A stretch of DNA of 64,000 nt. Source: Azotosporobacter soli (GTDB lineage: Bacteria > Bacillota > Negativicutes > SG130). This document shows, piece by piece, positions 13,867-52,252 of the stretch. A program made the position numbers and the translations under genes. The stretch covers positions 124,001 to 188,000 of the forward strand of contig NZ_JAUAOA010000002.1 of assembly GCF_030542965.1 (NCBI RefSeq). The letters are read 5' to 3'. The stretch's first letter is position 1; every line of letters starts with the position of its first letter. Under the pieces are notes generated by a model. It was not told where the DNA came from. It saw only the letters and a program-made list of their open reading frames with translations, and did not search any database.

Positions 13867-15867
13867 TTACATGTACAAAAGCGGCGCAATGATCAAGGAA
13901 ATCGTACCGGCAACTTTGATCAATGGGTTCATTGCCGGTCCGGAGGTATCCTTGAACGGGTCGCCTACGGTGTCGCCGATAACGGCAGCCGCATGCGTCG
14001 GGGTTCCTTTGCCGCCATGATGGCCGCTCTCGATGTATTTCTTCGCATTGTCCCAAGCGCCGCCGGCGTTGGACATGAAGATTGCCATCAACACGCCCGC
14101 CACGGTTGCGCCCGCTAAGAAGCCTGCCAACGCTTTCGCTCCCATGATGAAACCAACCGCCAGCGGACAGCCGACTGCCAAAAGACCGGGAACCAGCATC
14201 TCTTTGATCGCTGCCTTGGTGCTAATATCGACGCAAGCCGCATAATCCGGCTTGCCGGTGCCTTCCATGATGCCAGGAATTTCCCGGAACTGACGGCGCA
14301 CTTCGCCGATCATTTCAAACGCCGCTTTGCCGACCGCTTCCATCGTCAGCGCACAAACCAGGAACGGCAGCGTGCCGCCGAGGAAGAGGCCGATGATGAC
14401 GTTCGGTTCGGTCAGGTTGATGACCAAGTGGCCATTCGAAAGTAAATGGCCCAGTTTCGGATTTTTCGTGATTTCTTCACCGAACGCGGTAAACAATGCC
14501 AGTGCGGTCAGCGCCGCCGAACCGATTGCAAAGCCTTTGGCAATCGCCGCGGTGGTGTTGCCGACCGAGTCCAGCTTGTCCGTCGTCTTGCGCACTTCCG
14601 GACCAAGTTCCGCCATTTCCGCAATGCCGCCTGCATTGTCGGCCACAGGACCGAACGAGTCTACCGCAACCACCATGCCGGCGGTGCAGAGCATGCCCAT
14701 CGCAGCCATTGCGATGCCGTAGATGCCAGCCTGGTTGAACGAGACCCAAATCGCCACGGCAAAGACGAGAATTGGCAGCGCCGTGCTGCGCAAGCCATTG
14801 GCTACGCCGGAAATGATATTCGTCGCCGCGCCGGTTTCCGAGGCAGCAGCAATATTTCTCGTCGGCTGATGCGCCGATGACGTGTAATATTCGGTGATTG
14901 CGCCTACGGCCACGTTGACGACCAAGCCGCAAACGATCGCGATGAAGATGCCGAAGCCCTTATCGCCGAAAATATGAGTAGCCAACCCGTAAGCCAGGGC
15001 GGCGGTAATGATATTTGTGCCCCACAATCCGCGATTGAGCGCGGCTTGGGGATCGCCGTCCTCACCGGTACGGACGAAGAAGGTGCTGATAATCGCCGCG
15101 GCAATGCCGATTGCGCCGATTAAGAGCGGGAAAATGACGCCGTTAATGCCGTACAGCGTATTGCCGATCAGCATCGCTGCAATCGCGGTCGCGCCGTACG
15201 ATTCGAACAGGTCAGCGCCCATACCGGCAGTGTCGCCGACGTTATCGCCAACGTTATCCGCAATAACGGCCGGGTTGCGCGGATCGTCTTCCGGTATGCC
15301 CGCTTCTATCTTGCCGACCAAGTCTGCGCCAACGTCAGCCGCTTTGGTATAAATACCGCCGCCGATTCTCGCGAAGAACGCGATTGCGCTGGCGCCAAAG
15401 GCAAAGCTGTTGATGACGACCGGATCGCGGAAGATGATGTAAAGCACCGATACGCCGAGCAATCCGAGACCTGCGACCGACATGCCCATGACGACGCCTG
15501 CCCGAAAAGAAACACTAAGCGCCTTGTTCAAGCTGCTGCGCGCCGCCTCTGTGGTGCGGGCATTTGCCTTGGTAGTGGACGTCATGCCTACATACCCGGC
15601 TACAGCTGAACAAACGGCGCCTACTAAAAAGGACACTGCCAGTTTATAACCTTCTACATAAAACAATACGCAGAAGATGATGACGGTGAAGGGGATCAAC
15701 GTCTTGTATTGACGGTTTAAGAATGCCATCGCCCCTTCAAAGATCGCCTGAGATAAATACTGCATTCTTTCATTGCCAGGATCTTCACTTAACACGCTGT
15801 TCATACAATATGCTGCAAACAATAATGCCACAATACCTGCCAGTGGTGCAATAAATACTAATTCCAT
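13867..15867 (-). CDS. hppA: Membrane-bound K+-dependent pyrophosphatase (ion-pumping)
   Basis: Multi-spanning inner-membrane enzyme that couples PPi hydrolysis to export of Na+ or H+. The 666-residue length and about 16 hydrophobic segments fit the family. The catalytic loop [35 protein letters not shown] is complete and a second acidic loop near the C-terminus includes [13 protein letters not shown]. The GNTTAA segment has Ala where K+-independent enzymes have Lys, indicating K+ dependence. The ion pumped cannot be decided by eye. The frame extends to 15912, but GGGAGG seven bases before the ATG at 15867 and the [11 protein letters not shown] start support the shorter form. It lies between secG and the T-box unit. 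Confidence 0.94.
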
Positions 15868-16023
15868 TCCTTTTCCTCCCTTATCATGGTAACCGGAACA
15901 AACCGAATCCAAATTTGGCGAAAAAGACCCACTCCTGAACCACTTCTACTACACCTAGCTCAATGGTTACCTAGCACGTTTTCTAGCGCGGCTATATCCT
16001 GTTTTCTGCTGCAAAGATTGCTG

Positions 16024-24049: not shown

Positions 24050-25792
24050 TTAGCGCGCGTTGGTTTCACCACGGTAGACCAGACCGCGGCTGGTGTCAAC
24101 CGTGACAATGCTGCCGTCCGTCAGGCGTTCGGTCGCGCCATCGACGCCGACCAAGACCGGGATACTGCAATTGATGCCGACGATCGCCGCATGTGAGGTC
24201 AGGCCGCCTTCTTCCGCAATAACCGCGGAAGCTTTTGCCGCATAGGCCGCCGTTTCTTCGTCAACGCCGCTGATGACCAGAATGTCACCGGCTTTGAACT
24301 TCGTCTGAACGTCTTTGAACGAATGCGCTACGCAAACTTTGCCGGTAGCGGAGGTTTGGCCGATGCCTACGCCGCGCAGCAGCACATTGCCGACCACATG
24401 AACGCGAACCATGTTCGTCGTGCCGCTCATGCCCATCGGCACGCCCGCAGTGATGACGACCAAGTCGCCTTCTTTGACAACGCCGGATTCCAGCGAACTT
24501 GCCACTGCCTTTTCAACCATCTCGTCGCTGTTTTTGACAGCGCCGCGCAGGATCGGCTGTACGCCCCAGAGGAGCAGCATTTTACGCAGTGCGGATTCGC
24601 TCGGCGTAACCGCGAGAATATTGGCTTGCGGACGATATTTCGATACCATGCGAGCCGTGTAGCCTGTTGTCGTATCGGTCAGGATCGCAGCCGCGTTCAG
24701 TTCTTGCGCGATTTGTACTGTCGCGTGGCTGATTGCCTCCGTCGTGGTACGCTGCGTTGCCGCGGTTATTTCTTTGTATTTCAAGGCCGCTTCGGTACGG
24801 ATCGCGATACGCGCCATCGTTTCAACGGCTTCTACCGGATAATCGCCCTGTGCGGTTTCACCGCTCAGCATGATCGCATCGGTGCCGTCCATGATTGCAT
24901 TGGCCACGTCGCTTGCTTCGGCACGGGTCGGACGCGGGTTATTGACCATCGATTCGAGCATTTGCGTCGCGGTGATAACCGGTTTGCCGGCCTTATTGCA
25001 TTTCTCGATGATTTCTTTTTGTACGAGCGGCACTTCTTCGGCCGGGATTTCAACGCCCAGATCGCCGCGCGCAACCATGATGCCGTCGGAAACTTTGATA
25101 ATTTCGTCGACATTCTTTACGCCTTCAGCATTTTCGATTTTAGGAATGATCAACATATCTACGCCGGCTTCTTCGAGCAGCTTGCGGATCGTAAGCACGT
25201 CAGCCGCACGTTGTACGAACGAAGGCGCAACGATGTCCATGCCCAGTTTCGCGCCGAACAGCACATCGGCAATGTCCTGCTCGGACAAAGGCGGCAGATT
25301 CAAAGCTACGCCAGGCGCAGCAACGCGTTTGCGGTTGCCGATGCCGCCCGTATTGAGAACGGTCGTATGGATGTCATCGCCTTCGATCTTGTCGACATTC
25401 AGGCAGACAAGGCCGTCGGAAAGCAGAATCTGGTCGCCGGCTTTCACTTCCTGCGGCAGGTATTTATGGTTGACGGAACAAATTTCAACCGTACCTTCCA
25501 CGTCACGCGAAGTCAGGATGAATTTTTGATCCTTTTTCAAAACGACTTTGCCTTCTTTAAAGAGACCGAGACGCATTTCAGGTCCCTTGGTGTCAAGCAG
25601 CAACGCGACCGGCTTGCCTACTTTGGCAGAAGCGGCACGCACCATCTCGATACGGGCGCCATGTTCGGCATGATCGCCATGGGAGAAGTTAAAACGAGCG
25701 ACATTCATGCCGGCTTCGATCATTTTTTCCATAATCCCCGGTTTTTCGGTACTAGGACCTTGGGTACAAACGATTTTAGTTTTTTTCATCAT
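24050..25792 (-). CDS. pyk: Pyruvate kinase with C-terminal PEP-utiliser domain
   Basis: Makes ATP and pyruvate from PEP. At 580 residues it exceeds the roughly 470 of a minimal enzyme because of an added C-terminal swivelling PEP-utilising domain (about 480-580, with the EEGGLTSHAAIVG motif), as in Geobacillus pyruvate kinase. The core shows KIVCTQGPS, MNVARFNFSHGD, DTKGPEMR, the catalytic MVARGDLGVEIPAEEVP signature and SGETAQGDYPVE. The two adjacent ATGs at 25792 and 25789 are both possible starts. It is transcribed separately from the cggR operon, ending in its own terminator. Confidence 0.97.
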   Translation of the reverse strand: MMKKTKIVCTQGPSTEKPGIMEKMIEAGMNVARFNFSHGDHAEHGARIEMVRAASAKVGKPVALLLDTKGPEMRLGLFKEGKVVLKKDQKFILTSRDVEGTVEICSVNHKYLPQEVKAGDQILLSDGLVCLNVDKIEGDDIHTTVLNTGGIGNRKRVAAPGVALNLPPLSEQDIADVLFGAKLGMDIVAPSFVQRAADVLTIRKLLEEAGVDMLIIPKIENAEGVKNVDEIIKVSDGIMVARGDLGVEIPAEEVPLVQKEIIEKCNKAGKPVITATQMLESMVNNPRPTRAEASDVANAIMDGTDAIMLSGETAQGDYPVEAVETMARIAIRTEAALKYKEITAATQRTTTEAISHATVQIAQELNAAAILTDTTTGYTARMVSKYRPQANILAVTPSESALRKMLLLWGVQPILRGAVKNSDEMVEKAVASSLESGVVKEGDLVVITAGVPMGMSGTTNMVRVHVVGNVLLRGVGIGQTSATGKVCVAHSFKDVQTKFKAGDILVISGVDEETAAYAAKASAVIAEEGGLTSHAAIVGINCSIPVLVGVDGATERLTDGSIVTVDTSRGLVYRGETNAR

Positions 25793-25815: not shown

Positions 25816-27735
25816 TTATTTTGTTGCTTTGGCGGCTTTACGTATGACGTCGTAGACTTCGTCCTTCGCCTCAATAAAGCCGTTGAGATTGACGCGTTTC
25901 ATCAAATCGGCCTGTCGGCCGACGCGATCGGTCGTTTCCATGAACGCCGTCTTGAGATCCGCCAGCAGCTTGGCATCCAAGCCGCCGCGCGCCGCAATCG
26001 CATCTTTAGGAATCGGCTCGGTGCGCGCGAGAATTGTCAGGCCTTGCACCTTGGCGCCATGCGCTTTCGCCGTATCAAAAGCTTCCGAGTAAGTTCCGCC
26101 GGCATCGACGACACCTTCGAGAATTCCGTCGATGACCCGGTTGTGACTGCCTAAGAAAGATGTCTCGCCGAAGAACGTATCCGGGTTTTTCCCCTGTTCC
26201 AACAGCATCGCCCTGGGATATACATACCCGGACGCCGACTGGCGGTCTACAAAGGCAAAACGTTTGCCCCGCAAGCTATCCAACGATGCAAATTCATTAC
26301 GCGCCACAATATAACCGATATAGGAAGCATTGTTGTTGACCACCGCCGTTACCAGCGGAATAACATTGCCTCGTTCCTTAGCGGAAACATAGGCAAATGG
26401 AGAAAACCAGCCTACATCGATCGTTCCGTTCAACAAGGAACGTCCCAACGAATCATAGTCTGAAACGATGATCACCCTTGCCTGTCGGCCGACTTTTTTG
26501 GCGACTTCCTCCAAAATCGGACCATAGGTTTCTTTGATGATCTTCGGTGAAGTAAACGGATTAAAGCCGAATACCAGTTCATGCGGTTTCTTAAACAATA
26601 CGGCCACTTCCTGGATCTTGTCAACCGCACGCGTCATCTCCGTCGTGAATTCACTGATTTCATCGATGCTCCGTTCCTGTTGACCGATGCTGGCCAGCGC
26701 CTCTTGCGTGCTGCCGGCGATTTCGACCGTACCATTGCCGATTGTCTCAACCGCGACCGCCATCTGTTCGGTTGTCGACTGTTGATCGGACGACAGTTGG
26801 CACAGACGGCTGACCGTCTCTTCAATACTGCGCACCGTGCCTACAATGCTGTCCATACTGGAGGCGGACTGCTGCGCCATCTGTTCCATGCCGTCAATTT
26901 TCGTCTTGCCGGCCTGCATGCTCAGTGTGGCATTATGCGTTTTTTCCGTGATATCTTTTACCGTAGTTTCGACTTCATGCGTGATCGCTTCGCTCTCACT
27001 GGCCAGTTTACGCACTTCCTCGGCTACGACGGCAAAACCGCGCCCTTGCTCACCGGCCCGGGCCGCTTCGATCGCCGCATTCAGCGCCAGCAGATTCGTC
27101 TGGCTGGCAATGCCTTGGATCTTGCCGACAAACTCGCCGATTTTCTTAGTTGCAGCGTTCAGCTCTTCCATCGCTGTTACCGAAGCCTGCACGACCTGCG
27201 CCACTTCGAGCATCGTACGGCTCGATGCCAAAATGGCCTGTTGACTTTGCGCCGCCATTTCCGACGATTCACGGCATTGTTTCATCGCATCGCGGGAGGC
27301 ATTGGCCACAACGGCCGAGTTGGCCGCGATTTCCTCGACGCCCGCCGAAGTTTCTTCCGCACTGCTCGCTGTCGTCTCGCTTTCGCGCGCGATCTCTTTC
27401 GCCTTATTCGCCAATCTGTTGAGCGCTGTCCGGCTTTGACCGACCAACCATGCCAATTGCTGCGAAATAAAAGATAAGTTCTCGGCAATATCATACATAT
27501 TGGCATCGGGACAATCATTGCTCACTGACGTTTGCGCCAAGGTCGCCGCCGGGCGCGTCTCTTTTTCTCCCGCCTCCGGCGTTATACCCTTGAGCACTGC
27601 CGCCGAGATTCCCGCAAGAATCACGACGAGCAGCATACTCCACAGACTACCGACAGACTGCGCCAGCCATACGGCCAGAGCGCCCGTCACCATGATCGCC
27701 GCCAGATGGAAAAACATCACCTTTCTCCCGTTCAC
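25816..27735 (-). CDS. Chemoreceptor fused to a C-terminal PhnD-like binding domain
   Basis: 639-residue hybrid. Two adjacent transmembrane helices (about 7-26 and 31-49) with only a few residues between them leave no periplasmic sensor. A methyl-accepting signalling helix pair follows (about 80-380), with the conserved hairpin tip [40 protein letters not shown] at about 207-245. Residues about 386-639 match the PhnD phosphate/phosphite/phosphonate-binding fold ([39 protein letters not shown]). With both ends on the same side as the signalling tip, the binding domain is predicted to be cytoplasmic. The start is GTG at 27735, seven bases after AAGGGGG. The true ligand is unknown. Confidence 0.9.
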
Positions 27736-27818: not shown

Positions 27819-29030
27819 TTACTTTTTCGCTTCATACGCCTGACGCAACAGACTCATCGGATGAACAGCCTTAACGCCGGCACCGTGCGTAATCTGCAGA
27901 CGGCAAGTGCCGCAATCGCAAACCGCAGTATCCACGCCGCTTTCTTTGATCGTTTCAAACAGTTTTGCGCCTACGGTCATTGCGATGTCATACTTATCCG
28001 CTTTGAAACCGTAATTGCCCGAGATGCCGCAGCAGCCCGCATCGGCGTTTTCGATCGTCAGGCCAGGAATCATTTCCAGCAAATCAAGCGCCGGCAAGCC
28101 GTAACCCTGCACGCGCAGATGGCAAGGCGCATGGTACATGTAGCGATGCTCGATTGCGCCGAATTCTTTATTCAAACGGCCTTTTTCGTCCAGGTTCACA
28201 AGGAATTCCGTCGCATCATAAAGCATCTTGGCATTTTCCGCCAGACCATCGATCTCGAACAGTTCCTGGTATTCCTGTTTCAGCATCAGACCGCAGCTGG
28301 TGCAGCAGGTGATCACAGGAATTCCTTTGTCAGTCCATTTTTTCATAATCGCGGTATTCTTCTTGGCGTTTTGCTCGCACTCTTCCAAATAACCGGTGAC
28401 CAAAAGCGGCGAACCGCAGCAGACAAAATCTTCTTCGACAATCACTTCATACTTATTGGCCTGCATGACGGCGACGAAGTCCATGCCGACCTGCGGATCC
28501 TGATAGTTAATGAAGCAACCGGGATAAAAAACAACTTTGTCAGGGTAGCTGGTTTGCTTCAGTTCTTTGAATTGCTTAATAAACGAAGTGCCCGCGTAAG
28601 TCAGCGGCAGTTTGTCGGAAATACCGATCGCATTCATTATGCCGAACGCTTTGCCGACCTGCATGCCGAGGTTGGCAAAAAAAGCGCCCGCCGGCAATGC
28701 ACTGATCAGTTTACCCATTTTTTCGCCGTGACCCAGCATCTCGTCGCGCATCGACTGCTTGCGCGTCTTAAAGTACTGCGCACGTGCCTTCATATTCAGC
28801 GTCGAGATCGGCACGCCGGACGGGCAAGCCATATCACAGTTCTTACAGTTCGAGCAATACTCGAGCGAAGGCTCCACGTCGTCTTGCGACAGACGCATCC
28901 GTTCCAAGGCAGGGCCCATCATTTTGGGACCGCGAAATTTGCGCGTCGCTGCCGTTACCGGGCAATGAGAAATACAAGACGTGCAAGCTGTACAACTATC
29001 TGGATTTATATCATTATGATGTTTGCTCAT
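27819..29030 (-). CDS. glpC: Anaerobic glycerol-3-phosphate dehydrogenase subunit C
   Basis: Iron-sulfur subunit that passes electrons from GlpAB to membrane quinone. It has 403 residues. Two [4Fe-4S] motifs lie near the N-terminus (CTACTSCISHCP and CSNCKNCDMACP), followed by two CCG domains (CCGSPLLV, about 205; CCGISGNYG, about 335) typical of the HdrD/GlpC family. It is last in the glpA-glpB-glpC operon, 17 bases after glpB. Confidence 0.96.
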   Translation of the reverse strand: MSKHHNDINPDSCTACTSCISHCPVTAATRKFRGPKMMGPALERMRLSQDDVEPSLEYCSNCKNCDMACPSGVPISTLNMKARAQYFKTRKQSMRDEMLGHGEKMGKLISALPAGAFFANLGMQVGKAFGIMNAIGISDKLPLTYAGTSFIKQFKELKQTSYPDKVVFYPGCFINYQDPQVGMDFVAVMQANKYEVIVEEDFVCCGSPLLVTGYLEECEQNAKKNTAIMKKWTDKGIPVITCCTSCGLMLKQEYQELFEIDGLAENAKMLYDATEFLVNLDEKGRLNKEFGAIEHRYMYHAPCHLRVQGYGLPALDLLEMIPGLTIENADAGCCGISGNYGFKADKYDIAMTVGAKLFETIKESGVDTAVCDCGTCRLQITHGAGVKAVHPMSLLRQAYEAKK

Positions 29031-29047: not shown

Positions 29048-30292
29048 TTACACCGACATAGCTGCTTTATAACCGGAAGCCATTGCCACGCCGTTGCCGG
29101 ATTTTTCAAAGCAGAAATCGTAGCCGCACAGATTACGTCCGGCGATGAAGACATTATTTAATAAAACCTTGCCGTCGGCATCTACAGGACGCATCGTCTC
29201 ATCCACTGCGATACCGATTTTTTCAAACGGTTGAGCCTCATTAGAGAACATTTGAAAATTGGACCAATCTTCCTGCGTCGTCGGTGCTGCAATCGGCAGG
29301 TTGAAGACCGGCTCGATCGCCTGACCAGGTTCCGCAACCAGACCGCCGCCGTAGAAACCGCCGCTGGCCAGGATGAAACTCTTCGCCTGGTAGGTACGTT
29401 CGCGATCAATCGCTTCCGTAACAACAGCCGTACATTGACCATTTTCCACGATACCGCGCGTAACCACCGCATGTTCGACGACCTTGACGCCCAGTTTCTT
29501 TACATGATTGAGCATCATGATGCGCAGACGGTGACCGGTGATGCCCGGCGGAACGACAACGCTTTCCACAAACTTGCAGTTGAGCGCCTGTTCCAGCTCG
29601 TCGCGCACAGCATGGCTCGGCGCAGTGCCCAGCACCGGCGCAATCACAGCAACGCTACCCGGTTTGATCGTAGCGCGCAATTGCGCCACAAACGCCTTGC
29701 GGCCTTCAGCGCTGTCGAGCCAACGTGCGATATCGAGATTGGTTACATCGCGGCCAGCCGGCAGTTTCGGATCCACCATCAGCATTTCATACTCCTGGTC
29801 ATAACCCGGCATATTGCGCAGATTTTTCGCCACCAAATGCGGATAAAAATCCTTCAATGATTCAAAGCCAATGATATAAGCCTTGGACGCGTTCTTCAGC
29901 GCACTGGTGTCCATCGTCATCGGCACCAGGCAGGTCGGTTTAAGCGTACCGGCCGCGGTCGGGATCCATTGTTGCTGATCCAGGCTGCCTTTGTATGCGT
30001 AGCCTTCCTCTTTCGTCAGTTCAAGAAAGAACTGGACCGCTTCTTCGAGGCTCTTTTGACCGATCTTATTGTACGGATGGTCCGCCGCAACGGACGACAA
30101 ACCGGCTTTCGGATTGGCCACCGGTTTACCGTTTTTGTCATAGCCCAGCACATCGACATTGCCGCTGGCAATCGACAGGGTGCCTGCTCCTAACGATAAG
30201 ACCGTAACTTTTTTCCCGCGTTTCGCGGCAACAGCGGCAGCCATCAGGCCGGAAAATCCGCCGCCGATTACAATTACATCATTTTCCTTCAT
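29048..30292 (-). CDS. glpB: Anaerobic glycerol-3-phosphate dehydrogenase subunit B
   Basis: Flavin subunit of the GlpABC complex (414 aa). It opens with the FAD-binding VIVIGGGFSGLMAAAVAAKRG fold and has a LASGGFYGGGLVAEPG segment near residue 320. The frame extends to 30307, but GGAG nine bases before the ATG at 30292 supports that start; it overlaps the glpA end by 14 bases, implying coupled translation. Confidence 0.94.
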   Translation of the reverse strand: MKENDVIVIGGGFSGLMAAAVAAKRGKKVTVLSLGAGTLSIASGNVDVLGYDKNGKPVANPKAGLSSVAADHPYNKIGQKSLEEAVQFFLELTKEEGYAYKGSLDQQQWIPTAAGTLKPTCLVPMTMDTSALKNASKAYIIGFESLKDFYPHLVAKNLRNMPGYDQEYEMLMVDPKLPAGRDVTNLDIARWLDSAEGRKAFVAQLRATIKPGSVAVIAPVLGTAPSHAVRDELEQALNCKFVESVVVPPGITGHRLRIMMLNHVKKLGVKVVEHAVVTRGIVENGQCTAVVTEAIDRERTYQAKSFILASGGFYGGGLVAEPGQAIEPVFNLPIAAPTTQEDWSNFQMFSNEAQPFEKIGIAVDETMRPVDADGKVLLNNVFIAGRNLCGYDFCFEKSGNGVAMASGYKAAMSV

Positions 30293-31895
30293 CGCTGATC
30301 GCTCCATTTATGTTTAAAGTTCCTTCGTAAATTCCGCGCGTCAGTTGCGTTTCACGCATCACGTTGCCCCACAGGATCGGACGAATGCCTTTCCAGCGCG
30401 CTTGCAAAAATTCCTTGAACAAACCTTGCGTGTCCTTGCCCCAGGCCAAACCAGCGGCATCGACCGCGCCGACGCTGCGGAACGTGCAGAATGCGCCCTG
30501 GCAAGTGCCCATGCCCATGCGCGTCTTACGCCGCACATCGCTCAGCATATGACTGGTTTCATCGGCCGCCGCTTCTTCCACTTCGGCCATCGTGACGTTT
30601 TCACATTCGCAAAGCAATTGGCATTTTTCCGGATTGTCCTGCATGCGCTTGACAACCTTTTCCAGCCCTTCGGAGCCAAGCCGAGACGCAGCCAGTTCGG
30701 TGCCGTAAGCCGGGAAATATTGTTTCGCCTTGCTGATCAGCGCCGGCGACGCATCTTCCACGAGCGGTTCTTCCGCCGTGCGGCAAGCCGTCTTGTTGTT
30801 TAAGTACTGGCAAACCAAGTCCGTTACTTTTTCCGCCATCAGGCGATAAGTGGTAAATTTGCCGCCAACTACGCTGATGAAGCCTTTCAGTCCGTCATGC
30901 GCATGGTCAAGCGTCACGAAACCGCGCGACGCGCCGCGACCCTTGGCATTCGGATCCGCGCTGTAGAGCGGACGGGTACCGGCAAACGCACGCAGCATCC
31001 GGTAGCTATGAATGTCTTCAAACAACGCTTCGCCGATCTTGAGAAGCTCAACGACTTCTTTCGCGGTCGGAACATTGTCATCCGGATTCTTAACCGAAGC
31101 CGATGTGGTACCGAGAATCGTAATCGAGCCGTGCGGCACGAAAATGTCGCCGTCGGACGCCGGGCGCAGACGGTTCACAATACGACTCGTAATTCGATGG
31201 TTGAACGCGACCAAGGTGCCGCGGTCCGGTTGAACGTTAACGTCGATGCCAGCCAAATGTGCAATTTCGCCAGCCCACGAGCCGGCAGCGCTGACAACGA
31301 ATTCACAGGCAATCTTCGTAACGACGCCGCTCAGCGTGTTGCGTACCGTAATTCCAGTCACTTCACCATTCGTTTGTTCGATGCCAACCACCGTGGTGTA
31401 GGTCATAACACGGCCGCCGTATTTACGGGCCGAAGCCACGTTCTGCCAAACCATGCGGAAGCCGTCGATCGCAGCGTCAGGCACGCGGTAAACCGCTTGT
31501 ATCTTAGGGCTCAGGTTGGGTTCCAAGCGGCGCGCTTCTTCCACGGAAATAGGAATCGTGGGAATGCCGACGTTCTTACATGCTTCCAGCCATTTGCCTT
31601 CAAAGTCTTCTGGATCTAAAGGAGTTCGTACAAAAAACCCTTCGGTTTGCTCAACGCAATGTCTGCCGATTTTTCGTAAAATCGTATTTTCTTCAATACA
31701 TTCTTTGCCTGCTTCGGCATCTTTTACCGCATAACGTCCGCCGCTATGCAAGAGTCCATGATAACGGGAGCTTGTCCCGTAAGCCAAATCCTGCTGTTCA
31801 ACCAGAACAGCATCAATACCGCGCATACACAGGTCGCGCAGGATACCAACCCCGGTGGCGCCGCCACCAATGACAACTACTGTAGCCTTTTGCAT
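30279..31895 (-). CDS. glpA: Anaerobic glycerol-3-phosphate dehydrogenase subunit A
   Basis: Catalytic FAD subunit oxidising sn-glycerol 3-phosphate to dihydroxyacetone phosphate. It has 538 residues: N-terminal VVVIGGGATGVGILRDL nucleotide fold, YGTSSRYHGLLHSGGRYAV substrate region, and a C-terminal BFD-like [2Fe-2S] domain with CECENVT and TCQGAFC (about 430-480), absent from aerobic GlpD. GAAGGGG precedes the ATG. It is the first gene of glpA-glpB-glpC. Confidence 0.96.
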   Translation of the reverse strand: MQKATVVVIGGGATGVGILRDLCMRGIDAVLVEQQDLAYGTSSRYHGLLHSGGRYAVKDAEAGKECIEENTILRKIGRHCVEQTEGFFVRTPLDPEDFEGKWLEACKNVGIPTIPISVEEARRLEPNLSPKIQAVYRVPDAAIDGFRMVWQNVASARKYGGRVMTYTTVVGIEQTNGEVTGITVRNTLSGVVTKIACEFVVSAAGSWAGEIAHLAGIDVNVQPDRGTLVAFNHRITSRIVNRLRPASDGDIFVPHGSITILGTTSASVKNPDDNVPTAKEVVELLKIGEALFEDIHSYRMLRAFAGTRPLYSADPNAKGRGASRGFVTLDHAHDGLKGFISVVGGKFTTYRLMAEKVTDLVCQYLNNKTACRTAEEPLVEDASPALISKAKQYFPAYGTELAASRLGSEGLEKVVKRMQDNPEKCQLLCECENVTMAEVEEAAADETSHMLSDVRRKTRMGMGTCQGAFCTFRSVGAVDAAGLAWGKDTQGLFKEFLQARWKGIRPILWGNVMRETQLTRGIYEGTLNINGAISDEGK

Positions 31896-32212: not shown

Positions 32213-33715
<1,503 letters not shown>

Positions 33716-33821: not shown

Positions 33822-34562
33822 TTATACCAAACCGATCGCTCTGCAGACCACGAAGGCCAGCGTAGCGCCGAGCATTGGTCCAACAACAGGAATCCAGGAA
33901 TAACCCCAATCCGAATCACCTTTGCCAGCGATCGGCAGAATGAAGTGAGCGATACGCGGGCCAAGGTCACGCGCCGGATTCAACGCATAACCGGTAGGAC
34001 CACCCAAGCTCAAGCCCAATGCCCAGATCAGCATAGCAACCATGTACGGGCCAACGCCGGCTTGGAAACCTTCTTTGCCCATTACGCCTTTGCTGAAGAT
34101 AATGAAGATGCCGATCAGCAGGAACGCAGTGGCCAAGATTTCGCAAAGCAGGTTAGCCATCGTGTTGCGGATAGCCGGGCCAGTCGAGAATACAGCCAAT
34201 TTCAGGCCTTTGTCAGCGGTAGGCTCCCAATGCGGCAGGTACATCAGCCAAGTGATGATGCCGCCGGCAATGCCGCCAGCGATTTCTGCAAACATGGTAG
34301 CGATCGCGCCGCCCCAGCTGCCGTAAGTACCAAACGCCAATTGTTTGAACAGGGTAACTGCAGGGTTCAAGTCAGCTTGCGGAGCTCCGGTCGCGATAGC
34401 GCCGAAAACACCAAGTAAAACTGCCAAAGCCCAGCCTGTGGTAATAACGATCCAGCCACCGCCATTACCTTTCGAATCTTTCAGCAGGACGTTAGCAACA
34501 ACGCCGCAACCGAAGGTCAGCAAAATCATCGTTCCAAAAAATTCACCAAACAAATTTGTCAT
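33822..34562 (-). CDS. glpF: Glycerol uptake facilitator (aquaporin family)
   Basis: Inner-membrane channel for glycerol entry (246 aa, six hydrophobic helices). The pore motifs are visible: first half-helix around DLNPAVTLF (NPA) and second GYALNPARDLGPR (NPAR). The frame runs up to 34658, but GAGGAGG nine bases before the ATG at 34562 and the MTNLFGEFFGTMIL start fix the shorter form. A GlpP-type hairpin lies 120 bases upstream. Confidence 0.95.
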   Translation of the reverse strand: MTNLFGEFFGTMILLTFGCGVVANVLLKDSKGNGGGWIVITTGWALAVLLGVFGAIATGAPQADLNPAVTLFKQLAFGTYGSWGGAIATMFAEIAGGIAGGIITWLMYLPHWEPTADKGLKLAVFSTGPAIRNTMANLLCEILATAFLLIGIFIIFSKGVMGKEGFQAGVGPYMVAMLIWALGLSLGGPTGYALNPARDLGPRIAHFILPIAGKGDSDWGYSWIPVVGPMLGATLAFVVCRAIGLV

Positions 34563-34686
34563 AAGTCCAATCCTCCTCATATTTTGTGATACCGGCGAAA
34601 AAGTCCCTCCATCAATAACCAATAAGTCCAAATGACACGTCCTCTGTTTTACCACCACCTTTCACAGCTTGCTATCTAGATAAAAA

Positions 34687-35391: not shown

Positions 35392-35976
35392 TCAAGTCAA
35401 TAATATGTCTTTCCACAATTCCTGGCGACTGGTCGTTACCGCCGCAATGCCATTTTGCACCGCATGATTCACATCATCCATCGTGCGGATCAATCCGCCT
35501 GCCAACACGGGCAGTCCGGTTTCATCCTGAATTTCTTTTACGACGCTGGCGGGCACCGATCCCGGCAGAACTTCAATCGCATCCGGTTTAAAATTGCGGA
35601 TTAGATTCAACCCAGTGCGCAGTGATTCCGAATCCATTAAGAACAAACGCTGTACGACAATCATGCCCTCTTCTCTGGCAAAACGGCAAAGATGCGATTT
35701 CGTCGTGATAATCGCGGTAAGACCCAAACGAGCCAAAAACTTGATGCCCGCTTTGTCCTTGCCTACGCCGTCAAACAGATCGAGATGAAGCACGATCCGC
35801 TTCTTATGCTCCTGCGCCTGCGCTAAGAGCATCGGCAGGCTGTTGATGTCGCCGAATAACAAAACAACGCTGGGGGAAACCGTCTGGGTCAACGCCGCCT
35901 TGAAATCATCCATGGAACGTGCCGCCGGAATAACCGGGCCACTGGCTAAAATTTTAAGAACATCTAAAGACGCCAA
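35392..35976 (-). CDS. glpP: Glycerol-3-phosphate-responsive antiterminator GlpP
   Basis: Regulator that binds leader RNA of glycerol genes when glycerol 3-phosphate is present. The 194-residue protein is a TIM-barrel-like fold with LLFGDINSLPMLL, HLDLFDGVGKDKAGIKFLA, TKSHLCRFAREEG and IEVLPGSVP, all typical. Three starts compete (35997 TTG, 35985 GTG, 35976 TTG). AAAGAGGTG eight bases before 35976 is the best ribosome site, so that TTG is chosen. Both candidate target hairpins lie immediately downstream, ahead of glpF. Confidence 0.93.
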   Translation of the reverse strand: MASLDVLKILASGPVIPAARSMDDFKAALTQTVSPSVVLLFGDINSLPMLLAQAQEHKKRIVLHLDLFDGVGKDKAGIKFLARLGLTAIITTKSHLCRFAREEGMIVVQRLFLMDSESLRTGLNLIRNFKPDAIEVLPGSVPASVVKEIQDETGLPVLAGGLIRTMDDVNHAVQNGIAAVTTSRQELWKDILLT

Positions 35977-36071
35977 GATATGCACCTCTTTCTCCAAATT
36001 TCAATTTCCGCCTGCCTGAAGCAGCAAAGTTACTGCTTCATCTTATCACAGGGTTTCGGGACTGGCAACCG

Positions 36072-47446: not shown

Positions 47447-47947
47447 TCAATAGTCAATCCGCTCCGTCCATTCGTTTTCCTTGGCAAAAGCAGATGCTTG
47501 CTTCTCTTTCGGTTGATGCCAACTGACGGAAAGAATTTTTTCTTCCTGCTCGAAACGGCAGCTGACGCTGCAACTTTCCCGCTCGCCGCCTATCCGTTCC
47601 TTTGCTTTGTCAAACGCTTTGACCGCTTTCGTCTGCAGCACTTTTTCCGCGACCGCGTTAAGAATATCCGCCAGCACTTCGTTTTCCATATCTTGCGTTA
47701 CTTCCTCCTTTTCTGCGCCATAGAGAATTTGCACAAGATCCGCCAAGAGCAGCTTCGTGATCAAAACCTGGAACTCGGCATACTGCGGCGAACAAATCGT
47801 CAGGCTGGCCCGTTCGACCCGCTCCTTTTGCAGCGGCACTTGCAACGGCTCCTCCACACAGCAACCGCCCTCCAACAAAGACATGTTTTCAATGGTCTCG
47901 ATCACGGCTTTTTGCAAAATTCCGCGCCGTTCCTGCATCGTTTTCAT
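47447..47947 (-). CDS. CheX-like chemotaxis phosphatase-family protein
   Basis: 166-residue protein resembling the CheC/CheX fold: AVIETIENMSLLEGG opening helix, then a helix with LADILNAVAEKVL where active CheX/CheC have GExxN. The expected Glu is Asp here, so phosphatase activity toward a CheY is possible but not certain. AGGAGG before the ATG at 47947 decides the start (the frame extends to 47992). It is 69 bases after cheD. The family call rests on motif and context. Confidence 0.6.
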   Translation of the reverse strand: MKTMQERRGILQKAVIETIENMSLLEGGCCVEEPLQVPLQKERVERASLTICSPQYAEFQVLITKLLLADLVQILYGAEKEEVTQDMENEVLADILNAVAEKVLQTKAVKAFDKAKERIGGERESCSVSCRFEQEEKILSVSWHQPKEKQASAFAKENEWTERIDY

Positions 47948-48016
47948 GCCTGCACCTCCTTTTGCTTTCCCGTTCGTGCCCGAATTCGCCACCCTTGTCT
48001 TTGCGCTGCTTTGCTC

Positions 48017-48499
48017 TTATAACAGCCACTCGCCGCGGCCCGGCGAAGAGAGCAGCACCGCTCCGTCACTGACGCGTACGGTGACGGTGCGACTGTAATC
48101 AGCCCCGACATCTTCCGCCGCAGCGCCAAGACGATAGTACTGCAGCGTCTCACGCACCGCCAGAATATTGCGTTTGCCGATCGCAAAAAAGCTTTCCTGA
48201 TCCTTGATCGTAGCACCGCCTGCGAGTTTGATGATCATATCGCACGGCCGGCAGCCGTACTGCGCCATGAGTTCTAAGAGCAACGGAACGCCGGTATCGG
48301 CAAAACGCGCCGGTTCACGCCTGGCCAGCTCCCTGTTGATCTTCGATTCCGGCAAAGCCAGATGCAAGAGCGCCGCCGCTTTGATTTTCGGTGCAAAGGC
48401 GATCACGCCGACGCAAGAACCAAGCGCAAAGGTGCGGAGCGAATCTTCTTCGCGATTGGAGCATTTCAGTTCACCCACTCCGACAATCAGCATGCTCAT
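48017..48499 (-). CDS. cheD: Chemoreceptor glutamine deamidase CheD
   Basis: Deamidates Gln residues of chemoreceptors and, in Bacillus, works with CheC (160 aa). The catalytic Cys is in FALGSCVGV (about 29), the His in LLHLALPES (about 46), and a KLAGGATI strand with a GKRNILAVRETL helix follows, as in the family. Its ATG overlaps the cheB stop, so the two are translationally coupled. Confidence 0.94.
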   Translation of the reverse strand: MSMLIVGVGELKCSNREEDSLRTFALGSCVGVIAFAPKIKAAALLHLALPESKINRELARREPARFADTGVPLLLELMAQYGCRPCDMIIKLAGGATIKDQESFFAIGKRNILAVRETLQYYRLGAAAEDVGADYSRTVTVRVSDGAVLLSSPGRGEWLL

Positions 48500-49170
48500 G
48501 GCCAGACACCGCCCAGGCAGCGCACGATCGAAGCGGCAATGCCTTCGAGCGGCTGCACCACTTCCACACCGCCCAGATCATCGGCGACCTTTGGCATTCC
48601 ATACACGATGGAACTTCCTTCATCCTGGCCGATCGTCTTCGCACCGGCCCGGCGCATCGCAACCAGACCGGCAGCGCCATCGGCGCCCATGCCGGTAAGG
48701 ATTACACCGACCGCGTTGGCCGCCGCAGCGTTGGCAACCGAATGAAAGAGCACATCGACCGACGGACGATGTCCGTTAACAGTAGCGCCGTCACTGCACT
48801 GTACAATGTAGACGTCGCCAGAACGCCGCACCGTCATATGCTGCCCGCTTGGCGCAATCAAGACCTGCCCCGGCCTGACGCAGTCTCCATTCTTGGCTTC
48901 CGCGACTTTAAAACGCCCCTCTTGATTCAGGCTGTCCGCAAAACGTCTGGTAAAGCCGATCGGCATATGCTGTACGATGAGCATGCCCGGCAAATCGAGC
49001 GGCAGTTCGCGAATCAGCCGCCGGATCGCTTCCGTTCCTCCCGTTGAAGCGCCGATCGCAACAATCTTTTCGCCTTTGCCGCTGCTTTTCACCTTCTGTT
49101 CCGGCCTGCGGGAGAGCATCTCCCTAAACAAAGCCGAGTCAGTCGCGCTGTTCGCCCGGATCTGTGTCAT
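48496..49170 (-). CDS. cheB: CheB-type methylesterase without receiver domain
   Basis: Removes methyl groups from chemoreceptors (and deamidates in some species). The 224-residue protein contains only the catalytic domain: Ser in VAIGASTGGTEAI, His in LIVQHMPIGFT, Asp in GVILTGMGADGA. Only about 33 residues precede it, so the usual phosphoryl-receiver regulatory domain is absent. TTG at 49194 is upstream, but AAAGGGGG precedes the ATG at 49170. It may instead be controlled by the separate receiver encoded next to it. Confidence 0.92.
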   Translation of the reverse strand: MTQIRANSATDSALFREMLSRRPEQKVKSSGKGEKIVAIGASTGGTEAIRRLIRELPLDLPGMLIVQHMPIGFTRRFADSLNQEGRFKVAEAKNGDCVRPGQVLIAPSGQHMTVRRSGDVYIVQCSDGATVNGHRPSVDVLFHSVANAAAANAVGVILTGMGADGAAGLVAMRRAGAKTIGQDEGSSIVYGMPKVADDLGGVEVVQPLEGIAASIVRCLGGVWP

Positions 49171-49288
49171 ACGCCCTTCCCCCTTTGCAATCAAGCGTGC
49201 TTAGCTTTCTTTACGAAGGCGGCGCAATGTTTCTCTGTCTGCCTTGCTGTACGAGCCGCCCGCCAAATAGATAGGCAGCGCCATAGCT

Positions 49289-49645
49289 TCATTCGCGTGC
49301 GATTCTTTCCAGCACTTCAATGATTTCATCAATATTCACCGGTTTGCTGAAGAAATAGTAAGCGCCATAGTTGACCGCGGCGATCGCCGTATCGACATCG
49401 CCGTAACCGGTCATCAGCAAGACCTTCGCTTTGCCGTTCTTCGCTTTGATAAGACGCAGGACCTGGATGCCGCTTAAACCCGGCATTTTGATATCGGTAA
49501 TGACCGCCTGATGCTTCACGCCATCATAAGCGGCTACCGCCTCTTCCGGCACCGTATAAATATCACAGCTATGTCCGGCCGGTTCAATCACTGCCGCCAG
49601 ACTTTCCAAACAATCCCTGTCATCGTCAATCAGCAAAATATTCAT
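49289..49645 (-). CDS. Single-domain response regulator
   Basis: CheY-like receiver (118 aa). The acidic pocket LLIDDDRD, phospho-Asp in ITDIKMPG (about 51), Thr in LLMTGYGD and Lys in FFSKPVNIDE are all present. No output domain, so it acts by protein contact. It lies 35 bases after the histidine kinase and before cheB; it could be the kinase's partner and the missing receiver of CheB. Confidence 0.93.
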   Translation of the reverse strand: MNILLIDDDRDCLESLAAVIEPAGHSCDIYTVPEEAVAAYDGVKHQAVITDIKMPGLSGIQVLRLIKAKNGKAKVLLMTGYGDVDTAIAAVNYGAYYFFSKPVNIDEIIEVLERIARE

Positions 49646-49680: not shown

Positions 49681-52071
49681 TCAGCCCCGTCTGAGAACAG
49701 GCAGTCGAATCGTAAACAAAGCGCCGCCGCCCGTCCGGTCTTGCACTTCGATAGAACCTTCCAACGAGCGAATGATATTGTTGACAATCGCCAGTCCCAG
49801 CCCCATGCCGTTCCCCGCCCCTTTCGTCGTGAAGAACGGTTCGAAAATCCGCTCACGCAGGCTGCTGTCGACGCCCGGACCGTTATCGGCCATTTCCAGC
49901 ACGACGCAATCGTCCTGGCAAAACGTCTTTAAACTGATTTCCTTATCCGGCTTTTGCAGTTTGTCCAGTTCCTGCATTGCATTGATCAGCATATTAATGA
50001 CCGCTTCTTCCAATCGTTTGGCGTCCGCATTGATCTTTGGCAATTCGGCGGCAAACTGGCGGCTGATGCTGATGCCGTGCGCCTGCATTTGAGCTCCCAC
50101 CAGTTCCAAGGCATCGTATACCGCCTGGTTGCAGTCGCAGACACCTTCTTTAACGTCAACCTGACCGGAAAATACGCTGCGCAGATGCTTGATGATGTTG
50201 TCGATGCGGTTTACCGCACCCGATATTTTTTGCAAACTCGTCGTCAACTTTTCCAACTCCGGCGCTTTGCCTTTTTCCTGCCAGTATAAGAAACCGTCCG
50301 CCGCCAATTTGATCGCATGTAACGGCTGATTGATTTCATGTGCGATGCTGGCCGTCATCGCACCGAGCGATGCCATGCGTTCCGCTTTTTCCGCCATTTT
50401 CAACGCCTGCAAGCGATCTATCTCGGCTTGCTTCATATCGCTGATATCATAACAAGCGCCAATGTGACCTGCAAAATGTCCCTCTAAATCATAAAAAGGC
50501 ATTCCCATCGCCACAATCCAGCGATATCCGTGATCTTGAGCGCGCAAGCGGTATTCGATTCTAAAAGGAGTCTGGCGTTCCATGTTTTCACGATACACCA
50601 ATTGGCACAACTGACGTTCCTCCGGATGGACGCCTTCCAACCAGCCGGAGCCTTCTTCTTCCGTTTTACTCCGTCCGGTAAATTCGAGCCATTTCTTATT
50701 AAAGTAATCCAGTTGCCCATTACGATCCGCCCGCCAAATCAAGGTCGGGAAATCCTCGAATAATTGAATATAATAATTTAGCGACTGACGAACTTTTTCC
50801 TGCGCCTCGTGCCGTTCGGTGACATCCTGCTTGATCGCAATGAATGCGCTGATTTCTTTATGCTCATCCAACACCGGCGTGATGCTCATTTCTTCGACGT
50901 ACAGACTGCCGTCCTTACGCCGGTTGACTATTTCTCCGCGCCACAAGTTTCCGCTCAATATTTGTCGCCACAGCTGCTGGTAAAAATTCTTGTCTTGATA
51001 GCCGCTCTTGAATATTGCCATACTCTTGCCGACAAGTTCCTCGGCAGCATAGCCGCTAAGGCGACAAAAAGCCGGATTCGCCCACTGGATCACAGCCGCA
51101 CAGTCGGTAACGACAATGCCGTCGCCGGCATATTTTACAACCGTCGACAGCAAGTTTACCCGTTTGCGCTTTTCCGCCGCTTCCAGCGCAACAGCCGTCT
51201 GACTGGCAAAATGCTCAATCTGCTGCAGCAAGCCCGTATCAAAATATCGTTCCTGATTCGAATAGAGATTGATCGTGCCGATCACGTTATCACGGCAAAT
51301 CAAGGGCACCGCCGCAATCGTACGAAAGCCGAACTGTGCGGCTCGCTCGCGCCATGGTTTAAAGTCAGGGTGATCGACGTCGAACAATTGCGTGCTGGCG
51401 CTGCGAATACTCTTGCCTGCCGGCCCCTGGCTTTCCGGTCCTTCGTCCCAGCAAACCTTTATATCTTCCAGATAGTCAACGCTCTCACCGGCCCAGGCCT
51501 GCACGGTGAGCGAGCCAGCCGCCTCTTTGCTGCCCACCCAGACCAGTTCCAGCTGATAAATATTGACTAGCGAGCGACAGATCAGTTGCAAAATTTCCTG
51601 CGCCGGTTCTTCCGTCAAGACGCGCATCGCCACTTCATTGAGCAATAGATGGCAGACATTGCTGCGCACCAGATCCGTTTCAATTCTGCGCTGCTCTTTT
51701 TCGGCCGCCTTGCGGTCGCTGATGTCGCGCACCACGCTGACAATGTACTCTTCACCGTCCAGTGTGATGCCCTGACTGCTGACCTCTACCGGAAAAAACG
51801 TACCGTTCTTGCGATAATGAACCGCTTCAAATAGAATGGAGCCGGTATGCGCCTGCTTCATTTGCTTGCTTATCTTTTCTATCGAATCCTGCCGCCTCAA
51901 TTGATGGATGCTCATGCCAATCAGTTCTTCCCGCGTATAGCCGTATGTCTGCAGGGCAGCCCGGTTCACTTCCTGAAACAAACCGTCCGGATTGATGAGA
52001 AAAACACTGTCGCGCGCATATTCACCCAGACACCAGCCGTAGTCACGCGCCTTGACCGTTTCCTCTTGCAT
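49681..52071 (-). CDS. Cytosolic PAS/GAF multi-sensor histidine kinase
   Basis: 796-residue sensor kinase without transmembrane segments. In order: PAS with PAC (about 15-125), GAF (about 150-300), PAS-PAC (about 310-430), PAS-PAC (about 440-560), HisKA with AHEINQPLHAIK (phospho-His about 588), and HATPase with INMLINAMQEL, DNGPGVD and GNGMGLGLAIV. The open frame to 52227 has no ribosome site before the earlier ATGs; GCAGGTG before ATG 52071 supports the start. It is the first gene of the chemosensory group running to the SCIFF gene. Confidence 0.92.
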   Translation of the reverse strand: MQEETVKARDYGWCLGEYARDSVFLINPDGLFQEVNRAALQTYGYTREELIGMSIHQLRRQDSIEKISKQMKQAHTGSILFEAVHYRKNGTFFPVEVSSQGITLDGEEYIVSVVRDISDRKAAEKEQRRIETDLVRSNVCHLLLNEVAMRVLTEEPAQEILQLICRSLVNIYQLELVWVGSKEAAGSLTVQAWAGESVDYLEDIKVCWDEGPESQGPAGKSIRSASTQLFDVDHPDFKPWRERAAQFGFRTIAAVPLICRDNVIGTINLYSNQERYFDTGLLQQIEHFASQTAVALEAAEKRKRVNLLSTVVKYAGDGIVVTDCAAVIQWANPAFCRLSGYAAEELVGKSMAIFKSGYQDKNFYQQLWRQILSGNLWRGEIVNRRKDGSLYVEEMSITPVLDEHKEISAFIAIKQDVTERHEAQEKVRQSLNYYIQLFEDFPTLIWRADRNGQLDYFNKKWLEFTGRSKTEEEGSGWLEGVHPEERQLCQLVYRENMERQTPFRIEYRLRAQDHGYRWIVAMGMPFYDLEGHFAGHIGACYDISDMKQAEIDRLQALKMAEKAERMASLGAMTASIAHEINQPLHAIKLAADGFLYWQEKGKAPELEKLTTSLQKISGAVNRIDNIIKHLRSVFSGQVDVKEGVCDCNQAVYDALELVGAQMQAHGISISRQFAAELPKINADAKRLEEAVINMLINAMQELDKLQKPDKEISLKTFCQDDCVVLEMADNGPGVDSSLRERIFEPFFTTKGAGNGMGLGLAIVNNIIRSLEGSIEVQDRTGGGALFTIRLPVLRRG

Positions 52072-52202
52072 ACGCTTCACCTGCCTTTTTTTCAACTTGC
52101 CGCGCGCAGTTCGCGCATAAAAAGGAGAAGAAGAAAGAGAGTTTATTTTTATCCCTTCGACATTATTCCATTTTTTACCTGCTCTTTTTTTAGCGCACGT
52201 TG

Positions 52203-52252
52203 AAACTAAAAGCATCCCAATCGACAAAGCCGATCGAGATGCTTTTATAGTT
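52203..52252 (-). terminator. whiA terminator
   Basis: AAAAGCATC and GATGCTTTT with an inner GATCG/CGAT pairing form a hairpin overlapping the last codons of whiA, followed by AGTTTC on the minus strand. The T-run is short. Confidence 0.6.

Follow-up and report, generated by a model that had tools for sequence, protein, structure and literature searches.

Metabolism-dependent taxis is usually attributed to indirect signals, such as the redox state or the PTS. Sensing by PhnD-type domains is represented by ArrX and AioX, both of which are stand-alone proteins outside the cytoplasm with histidine kinases as partners. In E. coli, glycerol taxis requires glpK (PMC4996493), so a response to glycerol that depends on its phosphorylation is a real phenomenon. 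The authors of PacP, described in 2025, presented it as the first family of receptors with specificity for phosphorylated compounds (PMC12395807), and the CZB family is the most populated among the chemoreceptors that have C-terminal cytosolic ligand domains (PMC7390727). Within the PhnD family of binding proteins, GpxB binds G1P and G3P with a Kd of ~1-2 µM (PMC12718374). Here we describe a chemoreceptor in which a PhnD-type domain follows the signalling hairpin; our literature search, which covered the CC-licensed part of PubMed Central, returned no earlier report of an MCP-PhnD receptor.

The gene occupies positions 25816-27735 of the window (the whole 64,000-nt stretch of Azotosporobacter soli DNA analyzed), as initially annotated, and is encoded on the minus strand, with a GTG start at 27735, a GGGGGA ribosome site and a stop at 25816. 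The open reading frame and the Pfam and NCBIfam profiles describe a protein of 639 aa composed of two membrane helices, an MCP signalling hairpin and a complete PhnD-type domain, in that order. The two transmembrane helices (residues 2-27 and 30-49; 27589-27732, minus strand) are back to back and leave no periplasmic loop. On this point the hydropathy, with maxima at ~7-25 and 34-52, and the helices of the full-length AlphaFold2 model agree with each other and with the initial annotation; this model is of low confidence (mean pLDDT 69) and was used for helix limits only. The signalling hairpin (residues ~80-381; 26593-27498, minus strand) was delimited from PF00015, a motif scan and the AlphaFold2 helices, and consists of arm helices 80-226 and 228-381 with the tip near Glu223. 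The MCPsignal domain (PF00015, residues 174-332, 139 bits) includes the conserved hairpin tip, and the motif scan located methylation-type motifs of strict consensus on both arms, at residues 123 and 340. By its sequence features, then, the protein classifies as a methyl-accepting chemotaxis protein with predicted methylation sites on both arms of the hairpin.

The remaining residues, 382-639 (25819-26592, minus strand), form the PhnD-type binding domain, as delimited by PF12974, AlphaFold2, Foldseek and conservation. PF12974 (Phosphonate-bd) matches residues 389-628 with an E-value of 5.5e-61 and 206.5 bits (Pfam cut-off 27), and the profile is covered end to end (positions 1-242 of 242). NCBIfam TIGR01098 (phosphate/phosphite/phosphonate SBP) is above its cut-off, and the score for the NCBIfam PhnD equivalog is well below the cut-off. 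The AlphaFold2 model of the domain has a mean pLDDT of 93, and Foldseek groups it with HtxB, PtxB, ArrX, AioX, PhnD and GpxB. Sequence, profile and fold searches thus concur on the PhnD-type fold that had been proposed for this domain, and the suggested search against PhnD structures returned the expected family.

Since members of the PhnD-type family are normally periplasmic, one might expect the C-terminal domain to be exported and to sense outside the cell. However, no long protein of the fused family has a convincing hydrophobic segment between the hairpin and the binding domain; the highest 19-residue Kyte-Doolittle mean in this interval was 1.61, and it falls inside a coiled-coil arm. 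In addition, at least nine orthologues (L049, L075, L108, L114, L115, L116, L131, L141 and L144) lack any N-terminal membrane helix; these are spread over several separate branches of the tree. Because there is no intervening helix and some orthologues are soluble, we rejected export, which we regard as scarcely credible, and the placement of the domain on the hairpin's side of the membrane, in the cytoplasm, as predicted from topology in the initial annotation, is well supported by the sequences. In this receptor, a binding protein of the periplasmic type has been redeployed as a switch in the cytoplasm.

A scan of GTDB gave 77 loci, comprising 71 of the fused family and 6 stand-alone binding proteins. 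The fused family is found in Negativicutes, Clostridia, Spirochaetota (Spirochaetes) and one member of Synergistota, and the fusion lies within one frame at 68 of its 71 loci; the remaining three are cut by contig ends (L099 and L125) or frameshifted (L134). The latter belongs to Propionispora sp. 2/2-37 (L134 / L053), in which the orthologue is split over two frames by a frameshift or a sequencing error. Within 60 genomes of the same class we found 15 relatives that are 54-73% identical over the domain (the one in G044 is frameshifted), and the next matches were ordinary binding proteins with no more than 29% identity. Given this drop and the 71 loci, a fusion arising by chance or through assembly was rejected. 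In a maximum-likelihood tree, in which the distant outgroup rows sit on very long branches and only the split between fused and stand-alone proteins can be read from them, the fused domains form one group (support 94/92) separate from the stand-alone binding proteins, so the listing of MCP-then-PhnD proteins that had been called for yields a single clade. The stand-alone proteins nearest to the family (L136-L139, L142 and L145) have varied neighbors and were uninformative as a clue to the ligand, the fused clade being separate in the tree. One Sporomusaceae MAG carries a second, more divergent copy (L078, 54%) in addition to L072.

The phosphoryl ligands of PtxB are Y55, Y100, S130, S132 and H160 (PMC5700983). 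When the chemoreceptor is aligned with Te_PtxB and E. coli PhnD, its residues Y427, Y472, S500, S502 and H531 coincide with the phosphoryl-binding residues, and the Tyr/Tyr/Ser/Ser/His set of PF12974 proteins is therefore complete. All five are identical in 78/78 fused-family sequences and are among the strictly invariant positions of the binding domain (27/258); in 75/78, the STS motif has Ala501 in place of its middle Thr. These residues provide good support for a phosphoryl group as the predicted head of the ligand. On the tail side, the phosphite-capping tyrosine of PtxB (Te_PtxB Y208) aligns to Asp578 in 78/78 sequences, which would suggest a ligand with a polar tail. Phosphite, one of the candidates named in the initial annotation, is therefore unlikely. 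Asp578 is the counterpart of Asp205 of PhnD, and Glu551, the counterpart of PhnD Glu177, is present in 68/78 sequences; the Geosporobacter/Anaerosolibacter group has Val at this position despite its glycerol linkage. In E. coli PhnD, Glu177 and Asp205 bind the amine of 2-aminoethylphosphonate. The corresponding pair in GpxB, the one PhnD relative of solved structure that binds glycerol phosphate, is Arg223/Thr247 (PMC12718374), mapped via PhnD Glu177/Asp205 as equated in that paper; this pair is absent from the chemoreceptor. Taken alone, the tail residues would fit an amine and a diol equally well.

The genomic context points to glycerol metabolism. The receptor gene is part of a minus-strand series that begins with glpP, for the glycerol-3-phosphate responsive antiterminator (35392-35997; PF04309, 185 bits), a glpF-like glycerol channel gene (33822-34658; 50-53% identity to Clostridium MIP channel proteins, with a listed start that may be too far upstream) and glpK, for glycerol kinase (32213-33706; NCBIfam TIGR01311 above cut-off). 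These are followed by glpA (30279-31895; TIGR03377 above cut-off), glpB (29048-30307; TIGR03378 above cut-off) and glpC, for subunit C of anaerobic glycerol-3-phosphate dehydrogenase (27819-29030; NCBIfam equivalog), which ends 83 nt upstream of the receptor. Pyruvate kinase is encoded 23 nt downstream by pyk (24050-25792; NCBIfam TIGR01064), and the series continues with a cggR-like regulator, named by sequence reading, gap, pgk and tpi. Equivalog matches thus confirm the flanking genes initially named, and no terminator-like site was found on the minus strand in the glpC-receptor and receptor-pyk gaps. None of the genes identified directly beside the receptor encodes a transporter, and the PhnD-type domain, being cytoplasmic and fused to an MCP, does not qualify as the periplasmic partner of an ABC transporter.

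Some other genes of the window and genome are recorded here as separate observations. A minus-strand cluster at 48017-49645 encodes CheD, a stand-alone CheB methylesterase domain and a single-domain response regulator, and adjoins both a 181-aa ORF without a Pfam match (47447-47992) and a multi-PAS/GAF histidine kinase gene (49681-52227). A membrane H+-translocating pyrophosphatase is encoded at 13867-15912, also on the minus strand (PF03030, 916 bits). Elsewhere in the same genome (L007, 1306-3261, minus strand), sequence reading indicated a MoeA-like molybdopterin-biosynthesis protein with a C-terminal periplasmic-binding-protein-like domain, possibly another cytoplasmic domain of this kind.

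Across the family, glycerol or dihydroxyacetone genes lie within 6 kb of the receptor at 19/71 loci, in about seven gene orders and in both Negativicutes and Clostridia. Pelosinus and Sporomusa have glpKABC-MCP-pyk, and in a Selenomonadales MAG the receptor is flanked by enolase on one side and glpABC on the other. Clostridium carboxidivorans and C. muellerianum have glpF-glpP-glpK-MCP. Several of the other loci include a trio of FAD dehydrogenase/Pyr_redox/DUF1667 genes: C. bovifaecis and C. thermopalmarium (where glpP, glpF and glpK accompany it), Alkaliphilus (glpP-MCP with glpK and the trio), Tepidanaerobacter (trio-dhaR-MCP-dhaKLM), and Geosporobacter and Anaerosolibacter (trio-dhaR-MCP); glpFK-MCP-glpP-trio is also among the gene orders. 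An Epulonipiscium MAG is also among the glycerol-linked loci, and two loci were left out of the count (L133, with an FGGY kinase at 23% identity, and L134, with a sigma-54 regulator at 38%). The linkage is present in each of the tree's two main branches and requires ten changes, so it was gained or lost many times. In seven linked genomes, none of the other MCPs listed (~140) had glpK or the dehydrogenase within 6 kb; as these genomes were picked for linkage and the comparison covers the MCPs listed, this shows specificity and not rate. Similarly, among 30 MCP loci of the A. soli genome (1.5 kb flanks), only this chemoreceptor touches glp genes. We also found glpK in 15/15 receptor genomes compared with 16/26 other MCP-bearing genomes of the same class (Fisher p 0.005, uncorrected for kinship). 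The proximity of glpABC, offered as a hint in the initial annotation, became the main lead, since Clostridia show the same association in gene orders that are unrelated. The other 52/71 loci have no glycerol gene in the flank available, some flanks being short, and include most Selenomonadaceae; in this group (L082-L100 and L143; Anaerovibrio and relatives) two DUF445 genes mostly precede the receptor, usually together with a DUF2229 gene, which is CoA-enzyme activase-like. The ligand may not be the same in every lineage.

Glycerol-3-phosphate is what glpK, glpP, glpABC and the trio have in common, and dhaKLM adds dihydroxyacetone phosphate (DHAP). For this reason we propose glycerol-3-phosphate as the most likely ligand, with DHAP next. 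That the ligand would be a phosphorylated metabolite, as first conceived, is supported by both the conserved phosphoryl pocket and the glycerol-gene neighborhood. The best explanation overall, to which we give about an even chance, is that glycerol-3-phosphate (or DHAP) is sensed directly inside the cell and confers metabolism-dependent glycerol taxis. Several points count against glycerol-3-phosphate: the Glu551/Asp578 pair resembles the tail pair of E. coli PhnD and not that of GpxB, 52/71 loci show no glycerol gene in the flank available, Glu551 is Val in one glycerol-linked group, and the cytoplasmic concentration of glycerol-3-phosphate may exceed the range suited to a binder of micromolar affinity. 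The resemblance to PhnD, together with the many loci without glycerol neighbors, would fit a cytoplasmic receptor for a different internal phosphorus compound whose tail is positively charged or otherwise polar, such as phosphoethanolamine, an aminophosphonate or another phosphate ester, in which case the glycerol linkage would reflect shared regulation only. Nevertheless, the linkage has been repeated independently, and there are no phosphonate or C-P lyase genes among the identified neighbors; we therefore consider such a ligand unlikely, although it deserves attention.

The presence of phosphate/arsenate-binding ArrX and AioX among the nearest solved structures could instead indicate a cytoplasmic sensor of inorganic phosphate or an oxyanion. 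Cytoplasmic phosphate, however, is millimolar and would be expected to saturate such a sensor, the acidic Asp578 would disfavor an anion that has no donor tail, and no phosphate-uptake genes are among the identified neighbors, all of which make this improbable. We attach a similarly low probability to the domain being a structural or protein-docking module that senses no small molecule, or to the receptor acting outside chemotaxis. Strict invariance of 27/258 positions alone would not prove binding, but the invariant set holds the family's phosphoryl-binding residues, unlike that of a degenerate domain, and the methylation-type motifs and hairpin tip are intact.

Our computations establish the architecture, the compartment, the conserved phosphoryl pocket and the recurrent glycerol-gene linkage; the identity of the ligand, the sign of the response, the signalling mechanism, its coupling and its role in taxis are what we infer. 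For direct sensing of glycerol-3-phosphate or DHAP, the loop-less membrane hairpin would anchor the receptor (some relatives having no anchor), and the PhnD-type domain, C-terminal to the signalling hairpin, would close on a phosphorylated small molecule made in the cell. Closure would be passed through the returning hairpin helix to CheA, and methylation would adapt the signal. The outcome would be taxis toward usable glycerol, dependent on GlpF uptake and GlpK phosphorylation. With somewhat less assurance, and short of an even chance, we suggest that the family is a widespread class of anaerobe chemoreceptors that measure intracellular glycerol-3-phosphate or DHAP through a captured PhnD protein, providing a dedicated basis for metabolism-dependent glycerol taxis. 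If so, a receptor that binds a pathway intermediate through a binding protein of its own, and whose gene lies in the cluster of that pathway, would make direct metabolite reading testable, and would be an internal counterpart, unrelated to PacP, across anaerobic Firmicutes.

The chemoreceptor domain shares with the periplasmic binding proteins PhnD, PtxB, HtxB and GpxB (PF12974, PhnT family) the fold, a full-length profile match and the phosphoryl-binding residues, but it is cytoplasmic, is fused C-terminally to an MCP and has neither a signal peptide nor a transporter partner; its tail residues are unlike those of both PtxB and GpxB. ArrX and AioX are likewise near relatives in fold by Foldseek. 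As in other chemoreceptors with C-terminal cytosolic ligand domains, the ligand domain comes after the signalling hairpin and inside the cell, but here it is a two-lobed closing binding protein instead of the zinc-binding domain of CZB receptors. The response of E. coli to glycerol similarly needs GlpK, whereas its route is indirect, through the phosphorylation state of the PTS, without a dedicated receptor domain (PMC4996493). The PacP / sCache_PC3 glycerol-3-phosphate chemoreceptors share the proposed ligand class, phosphorylated C3 compounds, but they sense the external compound with an N-terminal periplasmic sCache domain that is unrelated to the PhnD-type domain described here (PMC12395807).
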